Below are positions 20,796-23,133 of a stretch of DNA of 47,863 nt, in pieces. The notes beneath the pieces were generated by a model, which saw nothing but the letters and a program-made list of their open reading frames with translations, searched no databases and was not told where the DNA came from. The DNA comes from Deltaproteobacteria bacterium (lineage in GTDB: Bacteria; Myxococcota_A; Polyangia; JAAYKL01), in contig JAQTNF010000022.1 in NCBI GenBank assembly GCA_028713995.1, positions 1-47,863 on the forward strand, read 5' to 3'. Position 1 is the stretch's first letter; each line of letters opens with the position of its first letter. The position numbers and the translations under genes are program-made.

Positions 20796-20886
20796 TGACT
20801 TTCCCCTATTCACCCCTTTCTATCCTCAACCATTTTTTTGATGGAGGATCAGGGGAAAGATAAAAGTCGTGTCCGGCCCTATTGCC

Positions 20887-20915
20887 TTGCCGCAAGGGCG
20901 ACGCGCGGCTATCCT
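20887..20915 (+). promoter_or_regulatory. Candidate promoter of the selenoprotein gene (TTGCCG - 17 bp - TATCCT)
   Basis: TTGCCG at 20887-20892 and TATCCT at 20910-20915, 17 bases apart, about 60 bases before the ATG. The -35 box lies in the small palindrome CTTGC-C-GCAAG. Confidence 0.45.
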
Positions 20916-20975
20916 GAATGGAGGTCGTTTGCAGCTGTCTGACCGGCGCCCGCGGGGCGCCTCAAGGAGATCCCG

Positions 20976-21833
20976 ATGAAGCACATGCACATCCTGCTGC
21001 TCGTCGCGGCCGTTGCCCTGGCCATCCCCATCGCCGGGTGCGACAAGGGCGGCGGCGGGGACGACGACACCGTAACGGATGCGGGCAAGGACGCGGCGCC
21101 GGACGCGAACGAGGACACCGGCTCCGAGAGCGACACGGGCAAGGACTACTCCTGCGTGGAAAAGCCCTGGGACGGCGTGCACAAGTACGGCGAAGATTAC
21201 GTGGATGGCCCATACGGTTTCAAGGGCTCCATCTGCCGCGACCCGGTGGCCACGACGCAGGAGTGGATCGAATACGGCGACACGATCCCGGACATCTGCC
21301 TGCCGAACCAGGACAACGAGGAGGTCTGCGTCCACGACTTCTACAAGAGCCCGGACTTCGACCTGCTCGTGGTCAACTTCAGCGCCCTGTGGTGACCGGG
21401 CTGCAACCTCATGGGCGATGAGGACACGATCCTGACCGAGTACTTCGAGAGCCTGGGATTCAAGACCTTGATCCTGACCATCCTCCTGGACGGCAATTCC
21501 CCCGGCAAACCCGCCTCGCAGTGGGACGCGATCGTCTGGGGGGCGAGCCACGACATCACGAACGACATCCTCTGGGACGCCAAGGGCACCTGGGGCATGA
21601 GCCCCTTCACCGACATGTGGCCGGGCGACGGCTTCGAGGGCGCGCGCGGGACCCCCCAGTGGTTCATCGTGGACACGAAGACCATGCTGATTTGGGACTC
21701 GCCGACCGGGTATGCGCCCGACATGCACACGACCAGCTATCTCTCCGACATCCTCGACCTCTGCAAGGACGGCTCCGGATGGGCTCCGGACTCGGACGCG
21801 GGTGTGGACGGCGGAATCGACGCCGGGATCTGA
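20976..21833 (+). CDS. Thioredoxin-fold lipoprotein with predicted selenocysteine (UPGC active site)
   Basis: 285 residues if the in-frame TGA at 21393-21395 is read as selenocysteine (residue 140). AAGGAG precedes the ATG. The signal peptide ends at lipobox PIAGC, followed by an Asp-rich linker. Then DLLVVNFSALW-TGA-PGC matches the active-site strand of TlpA/redoxin proteins (typically VVNFWATWCxxC), so TGA replaces the first, attacking cysteine. The same frame continues uninterrupted: GFKTLILTILLDG (next thioredoxin strand) and RGTPQWFIVD (cis-Pro loop). A hairpin suited to a bacterial SECIS follows the TGA. Expected role: thiol-disulfide or peroxide chemistry in the envelope. Alternative: a nonsense mutation, less likely because the codon falls exactly at the redox position. 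No selA/B/C/D genes are in the window. Confidence 0.8.
21393..21423 (+). promoter_or_regulatory. UGA selenocysteine codon and candidate bacterial SECIS hairpin
   Basis: TGA at 21393-21395. CCTCAT (21407-21412) pairs perfectly with ATGAGG (21418-21423) around the five-base loop GGGCG. Seventeen bases separate the codon from the loop, and the loop begins with G. This fits the known bacterial SECIS rule (apical loop 16-37 bases downstream, G in the first two loop positions). A weaker lower helix (GG at 21399-21400 with CC at 21431-21432) is possible. Confidence 0.65.
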
Positions 21834-21861: not shown

Positions 21862-23133
21862 ATGGATCTGACGATCATCCACGAGAACGGGGACCGCAAG
21901 GGAGCTCGCCAGATCTTTGCCGGCAAGGCCATCGTCCGCATCGGCCGGCACCTCGACAACGACTGCGAGCTCAACTCCAACGGGGATCGGGGCGTGTCGT
22001 CGTTCCACGCGGAGCTCCGCATCGAGGATGGACGCGTGCGGGTCGTGGACACGGGCTCGACGAACGGGGTTTTCGTCAACGCCGTTCGCGTGAGCGACGC
22101 CTTTCTTTCACCGACGGATCTGGTGGAGCTCGGCGAGGGCGGCCCTGCGTTCCGGGTCGAGGGTGCGCCCCCCATGCCCGCGGGCGAGAAGAAGTACGGC
22201 CAGCGCACGGTGGGCATGATGATCGAGAGCGCGCTCGCGCGGGCAGGCCTGGCGCGAAAGGGCGGCACGTCCAAGTCGACCGAGTACTTCGAGGCCCTCG
22301 TGGAGAAGAAGGTGCGGCGCACGTCCGCAGTCCTCCGGTGGACCATCGCCGCGTCGGTCCTCGTCCTCGCCGCCGCCGGGACCGCGTCCGGCGTGTACCT
22401 GTACCGCAATCGCTCGGTGCAGGTCGTCCAGACGACGCAGGTGAACTACGGCGACGCGACGGGAAGCGCCGTGGCCGCGGCGAACCGATATACGATCTTC
22501 ATGCTGGCCGGCCAGCCCAGGCTGCCCCAGGGATTCGGCCCGTTGCAGGGATTCTGCTCGGCCTTTGCCGTGAAGGACGACGTGCTCGCCACGAACGCCC
22601 ACTGCGTCCGCGTGGCGTCCGAACAGTTCGCGGGCATCGTGGCGATCATGAACGGCGTGCCCGCCGGGCGCTATCCCGTGTCGCGCATGGTGGCGCACCC
22701 GGGCTACGTGAAGGGCGAGATCTCGCCGGACGTTGGCCTCATGCGGGTCGCGGCGAGGCTCCCCTACGTGGTGTCGATCGCCCCCGCGACCGAGCTGGCC
22801 CAGATCGCGCCCGGCGCGCCCATGTTCCTGTACGGCTTCCCGGGCCGCCTGAACCGCGAGGATGCGCCAGAAGCCACGTTCGTGAACGGAGACATCGGCC
22901 GCGTCACGACCTTTGACCAGCGCCTCGGCAACTTCGGCGAGAACACGCTCCTGCAGCACTCGGCGTTCTCGACGGGCGGCACCTCGGGCAGCCCCATGTT
23001 CAACTCGGCGGGCCGCGTCATCGGCATCAATGCCGGGGGCTACCTGGAGGGCGCCGAGGTCCTGCACGGTTACAACTTCGGGATGCGCATCGACCTCATC
23101 GAGCCTCTCTTCGCCATGCTGGGGAGCGGATAG
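21862..23133 (+). CDS. FHA domain - transmembrane helix - trypsin-like protease
   Basis: 423 residues. Residues 1-100 are a forkhead-associated phosphothreonine-binding domain: RIGRHLDNDCEL, VSSFHAEL and DTGSTNGVFVN are the conserved loops. A basic linker leads to one membrane helix near 155-178. Residues 205-420 are a trypsin-like serine protease with His247 in TNAHC, Asp290 in PDVGLM and Ser375 in GGTSGSP. The FHA domain should face the cytoplasm and the protease the periplasm, an arrangement suited to passing a phosphorylation signal across the membrane (inference). Followed after six bases by a small membrane protein gene. The ribosome site before the ATG is weak. Confidence 0.9.
   Translation: MDLTIIHENGDRKGARQIFAGKAIVRIGRHLDNDCELNSNGDRGVSSFHAELRIEDGRVRVVDTGSTNGVFVNAVRVSDAFLSPTDLVELGEGGPAFRVEGAPPMPAGEKKYGQRTVGMMIESALARAGLARKGGTSKSTEYFEALVEKKVRRTSAVLRWTIAASVLVLAAAGTASGVYLYRNRSVQVVQTTQVNYGDATGSAVAAANRYTIFMLAGQPRLPQGFGPLQGFCSAFAVKDDVLATNAHCVRVASEQFAGIVAIMNGVPAGRYPVSRMVAHPGYVKGEISPDVGLMRVAARLPYVVSIAPATELAQIAPGAPMFLYGFPGRLNREDAPEATFVNGDIGRVTTFDQRLGNFGENTLLQHSAFSTGGTSGSPMFNSAGRVIGINAGGYLEGAEVLHGYNFGMRIDLIEPLFAMLGSG

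Follow-up and report, generated by a model that had tools for sequence, protein, structure and literature searches.

A TGA-interrupted redoxin gene in a Myxococcota genome as a probable lipid-anchored selenoprotein

A gene interrupted by a TGA at its likely catalytic residue may be broken or may encode selenocysteine (Sec), and one such gene lies in the window, the whole 47,863-nucleotide stretch of Deltaproteobacteria contig JAQTNF010000022.1 analyzed here. A single forward-strand frame runs from an ATG at position 20976 to a final TGA at 21831 to 21833, spanning 285 residues (20976 to 21833), and is preceded by AAGGAG (20965 to 20970, same strand), probably its ribosome-binding site. The sole internal TGA is codon 140 (21393 to 21395), which sits in the motif VVNF, then SALW-U-PGC. 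A first-pass annotation made from the sequence alone had placed this TGA at the first Cys of a C-x-x-C motif in a thioredoxin-fold lipoprotein, proposed a likely new selenoprotein, and expected automatic annotation to report two broken genes. The sequence confirms the observation of one redoxin frame with a single internal TGA, and plain open reading frame (ORF) calling does split the gene into 20976 to 21395 and 21411 to 21833.

Codon-position base composition is alike in the two halves of the frame and resembles that of neighboring genes, with GC at positions 1, 2, and 3 of 0.63, 0.40, and 0.93 before the TGA and 0.54, 0.49, and 0.92 after it. The Pfam AhpC-TSA model (PF00578) aligns across the TGA and defines the AhpC-TSA/redoxin domain core (residues 101 to 203; 21276 to 21584, + strand), with an E value of 2e-5 and a score of 24.9 bits that is just below the curated cutoff of 26. 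PF08534 scores 19.2 bits against a cutoff of 26.6. Among relatives, 20/22 match PF00578 and 19/22 match PF08534 at E values up to 0.001. Because the domain match crosses the TGA, third-position GC is kept at 0.92 to 0.93, and relatives align on both sides, the continuity of the frame is not due to chance. An antisense ORF that overlaps the gene (20826 to 21728) was rejected, as it has no Pfam match and its codon-position GC (0.88/0.46/0.58) is noncoding at the third position.

Homologs align over the full length of the protein and continue past the TGA. A single-sequence scan of genome contigs found no relatives, and an alignment scan found five. Within the same taxonomic family, among records named Myxococcota or Deltaproteobacteria MAGs, three relatives have Cys at the site (CPYC, CPIC, and CSIC) and two relatives from another genus have TGA (GFGUPSC and GFGUPTC). 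Cys/Sec positions 108, 118, 140, and 143 are invariant in the window subfamily, and the TGC for Cys143, the probable resolving residue of U-P-G-C (21402 to 21404, + strand), is invariant across 22 aligned members. A profile search over 379 Myxococcota genomes extended the family, with counts that are lower bounds since only a few candidates per genome were scored; among the matches listed, at least about 79 have a TGA and roughly as many lack one. The active-site codon in 71 distinct members is TGA (34), TGC (21), or TGT (16). A tree of these 71 domains contains 11 Sec/Cys changes, at least 4 of them forced by well-supported branches; with many weak branches and some long ones, it gives the number of changes and not their direction. 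The window protein and its close relatives form a long, well-supported branch in this tree, ~20% identical in alignment to the main group of a fast-evolving family. The placement of the TGA at the first Cys of C-x-x-C is thus borne out, as every homolog has Cys (TGC or TGT) or TGA aligned there.

These comparisons bear on the possibility that a Cys codon was mutated to, or misread as, TGA, leaving two dead fragments. The assembly is uncultured and fragmented (218 contigs), and TGA is one base away from both TGC and TGT. However, the same TGA occurs at the same residue in many independent genomes from several taxonomic families, and all internal stops listed in the searches of the 379 genomes are TGA, never TAA or TAG, which is not what random decay gives. 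Third-position GC of 0.92 after the TGA also argues against decay, as does purifying selection in two close relatives, with a dN/dS of 0.39 downstream of the TGA. A pseudogene or sequencing error appears largely refuted by these sequence patterns, and we regard it as highly improbable.

The source assembly (4.98 Mb, 97% complete) encodes all four components of the Sec machinery whose absence, according to the first-pass annotation, would have spoken against a selenoprotein: selA (E = 4.5e-103), selB (E = 1.4e-104), selD (E = 2.8e-110), and a tRNA-Sec gene, selC (70.7 bits, anticodon tca [UCA]). SelD (locus L023, G000:C59:12778-13698, minus strand) has an in-frame TGA of its own in GSGU-AGK, the known Sec/Cys site of this protein, and is itself a predicted selenoprotein. 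Although it is an unrelated cytoplasmic enzyme, its Sec would come from TGA via the same machinery, making it an internal positive control for the redoxin. With these genes present and a TGA at that site in SelD, it is very likely that the organism uses Sec, independently of the redoxin gene. Reassignment of TGA to Trp or Cys throughout the genome, as opposed to Sec insertion at a signal, would likewise open the frame. We give that explanation almost no credence, since the final stop of the gene is itself a TGA, the aligned residue in homologs is Cys and not Trp, and the genome has a full set of Sec machinery, with the SelD site as the only other internal TGA found. None of the seven other AhpC-TSA matches in the genome is interrupted by an internal stop, TGA included; on sequence grounds, the window protein is the only predicted Sec redoxin of this type found in its genome.

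Of the 27 genomes with TGA members that were compared for this purpose, 24 have SelB. The other three (G126, G238, and G331) are 92, 76, and 83% complete, and their lack of a SelB match probably reflects assembly gaps. SelB was also present in 36/53 genomes lacking a TGA member and so is no predictor of the Sec form by itself. In the taxonomic family of the window organism, a homolog occurs in none of seven genomes without SelB and in five of seven with it (Fisher P = 0.02).

A SECIS-like upper stem-loop, CCUCAU-GGGCG-AUGAGG (21407 to 21423, + strand), follows the TGA. Its 5-nt loop, 6-bp stem, spacing of 17 nt from the UGA to the loop, and energy of -10.5 kcal/mol fit the bacterial SECIS constraints given in PMC13188914, namely, a loop of 3 to 9 nt, a stem of 4 to 16 bp, a G within the first two loop bases, a spacing of 16 to 37 nt, and a minimum free energy of at most -7.5. 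Synonymous recoding yields an equally strong hairpin in 11% of cases at this locus (P of about 0.11), and of all TGA triplets in the window, 63% pass the permissive published model. Taken singly, the hairpin thus carries little weight, and we rejected it as stand-alone proof. A search of Rfam returned nothing relevant. At the level of the family, a hairpin at one energy cut is found in 34/34 TGA members and 11/37 Cys members (Fisher P = 5e-11, for rows that are related and not independent). Compensatory stem changes (C-G to G-C, G-C to A-U, and others) occur in two sister groups whose hairpins sit at different positions, and the covariation score there is above those of all shuffles and all slid controls.

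Taken together, the Cys and TGA homologs, the hairpin in TGA members, and the sel genes support the selenoprotein reading, and we infer that codon 140 is very probably read as Sec, giving one lipid-anchored redoxin of 285 residues. The UGA would be decoded by SelB-bound Sec-tRNA, aided by the hairpin just downstream. Release factor is a competitor for the UGA in known bacterial Sec genes, and it is conceivable that termination predominates here, with a 139-residue lipoprotein as the main product and Sec read-through as a minor, selenium-dependent event, in part a selenium-controlled switch. The truncated form would retain the signal peptide, lipobox, and linker. However, it would be missing almost the entire redoxin domain, both catalytic residues included, and conservation extends through the downstream half of the gene, making predominant termination very unlikely.

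The full-length Sec protein, as we read its sequence, is extracytoplasmic and lipid anchored. A lipobox is recognized in its N terminus, MKHMHILLLVAAVALAIPIAGC, by pattern and inspection alone. A signal peptide with the lipobox IAGC (residues 19 to 22; 20976 to 21041, + strand) ends in Cys22, the predicted site of lipidation, and this Cys column is at least 90% conserved in 22 members. A low-complexity linker rich in Gly, Asp, and Ala (21042 to 21155, + strand) connects the anchor with the redoxin domain. Other members have SD or TSP3 repeats in this region, and two relatives (L026 and L064) bridge it with EG or SD dipeptide repeats of great length, which varies between genomes. The first-pass annotation had described the protein as surface anchored and lipidated. 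The lipobox supports lipidation, but surface placement is not supported, because the +2 residue after the lipobox Cys is Asp, which by E. coli rules signals retention in the inner membrane and so argues for that location. After export and lipidation at Cys22, the linker would hold the redoxin domain flexibly outside the cytoplasm.

An AlphaFold model of the protein has a mean pLDDT of 56, with values of about 80 to 90 around the active site, and is reliable in the domain core alone. The first helix to follow the central strand starts with U140, and the CCC codon for Pro227 (21654 to 21656, + strand), invariant across the 22 members, marks the conserved cis-Pro position, in agreement with the thioredoxin fold and GTP cis-Pro loop noted in the first-pass annotation. 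In a PDB fold search with this model, ResA proteins were the best matches and GPX4 was close behind. The ResA/TlpA-like arrangement, consisting of a thioredoxin fold, U/C-x-x-C, and cis-Pro, is therefore present in a moderately confident model. The most likely task of the protein is to reduce disulfides or other oxidized substrates of the cell envelope, perhaps peroxides, although both the substrate and the direction of electron flow are our reading. Within the U-x-x-C pair, Sec140 would attack and Cys143 would resolve, and the pair might be recharged via DsbD/CcdA; membrane proteins of this type, potential electron donors, are present in the same genome.

The main functional alternative is a selenoprotein that acts as a thiol peroxidase of the GPx/AhpC type and not as a ResA-type disulfide reductase. 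AhpC-TSA is the best Pfam match, GPX4 structures rank just behind ResA in the fold search, and 10/22 family members match the GSHPx model. Nevertheless, ResA proteins are the top fold matches, and U-x-x-C with cis-Pro is the thioredoxin/ResA arrangement, as opposed to the T-x-x-U of the selenocysteine peroxiredoxins catalogued in PMC13188914. A peroxidase thus seems unlikely, if a serious candidate. A role in defense was rejected, as the redoxin has no PADLOC match. A gene encoding an FHA domain and a trypsin-like peptidase (21862 to 23133) begins 28 bases downstream on the same strand and is possibly cotranscribed. We do not claim it as an operon partner; the flanks of relatives hold no shared gene neighbor that would hint at a substrate.

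How new the disulfide reductase-like selenoprotein is depends on how it relates to known systems. It resembles ResA/TlpA thiol-disulfide oxidoreductases in its CxxC-to-cis-Pro layout, extracytoplasmic position, and membrane tether, but differs in having Sec in place of the first Cys and a lipid tether in place of a transmembrane helix, and it has here no link to cytochrome c maturation. The NCBIfam ResA model matches 18/22 family members, and no NCBIfam model matches the window protein. NF041054, a ResA-like WAxxUGC motif protein, shares a ResA-like domain with an active-site Sec and weakly matches 7/22 members; its motif is UGC, whereas that of the window protein is U-x-x-C (LWUPGC), and the window protein falls outside that model. 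Three papers catalogue UxxC redoxin and Prx-like selenoproteins (PMC13188914, PMC2398784, and PMC1088965). The "Redoxin family protein" (PF08534, UxxC) and "Prx-like" UxxC groups, as described in PMC13188914 and PMC2398784, have in common with our protein a redoxin/AhpC-TSA-type domain, Sec first in UxxC, Cys homologs, and a bacterial SECIS-like hairpin. They are told apart from it by description and may overlap with the wider Myxococcota group. The searched text of those two papers makes no mention of lipoproteins, signal peptides, TSP3 stalks, or Myxococcota, nor do searched passages of prokaryotic selenoproteome reviews speak of lipoproteins or Myxococcota. A search of freely available literature, together with NCBIfam, yielded no description of a lipoprotein, stalked, tandem selenoredoxin group from Myxococcota. 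Selenium use in the phylum is already known, as eleven selenoproteins, including a thioredoxin and a peroxiredoxin, are reported for Anaeromyxobacter dehalogenans in PMC1794560. The earlier claim of a new selenoprotein accordingly holds for the lipid-anchored subfamily and not for the kind, and should the catalogued "Redoxin family protein" turn out to be this very group, ours would be a new member of it.

Beyond the window, most TGA members have a lipobox, and TSP3 repeats lie between lipid and domain in 14/22 aligned proteins; the window protein has none. The TSP3 part weakly matches CglD and MtsD, which are myxobacterial motility/cohesion proteins. In several Myxococcota genomes (L112, L116, L117, L075, and L086), two or three TGA members follow each other head to tail. 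Some TGA redoxins (L070, L083, and L082) end in a C-terminal Cys, a hydrophobic stretch, and an Arg tail, and the MYXO-CTERM sorting model matches one family member; a selenoprotein with a MYXO-CTERM-like tail would be handled twice by the cell.

We tentatively propose, at somewhat less than even confidence, that lipid-anchored selenoredoxins, often TSP3 stalked and in tandem, make up an undescribed group spread across the phylum Myxococcota and form a selenium-dependent redox layer in the envelope, with the window protein as a divergent subfamily. The lipid anchor, extracytoplasmic position, TSP3 stalks, and tandem copies suggest that selenium is invested in envelope redox chemistry, a context that goes undiscussed in the catalogues cited here. 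With Cys and Sec forms found among closely related genomes, the family lends itself naturally to studies of what Sec contributes and how Sec and Cys exchange. At this locus, two apparently broken genes would become one working selenoprotein, and the case signals a large group of such genes broken up at the TGA by routine gene calling.
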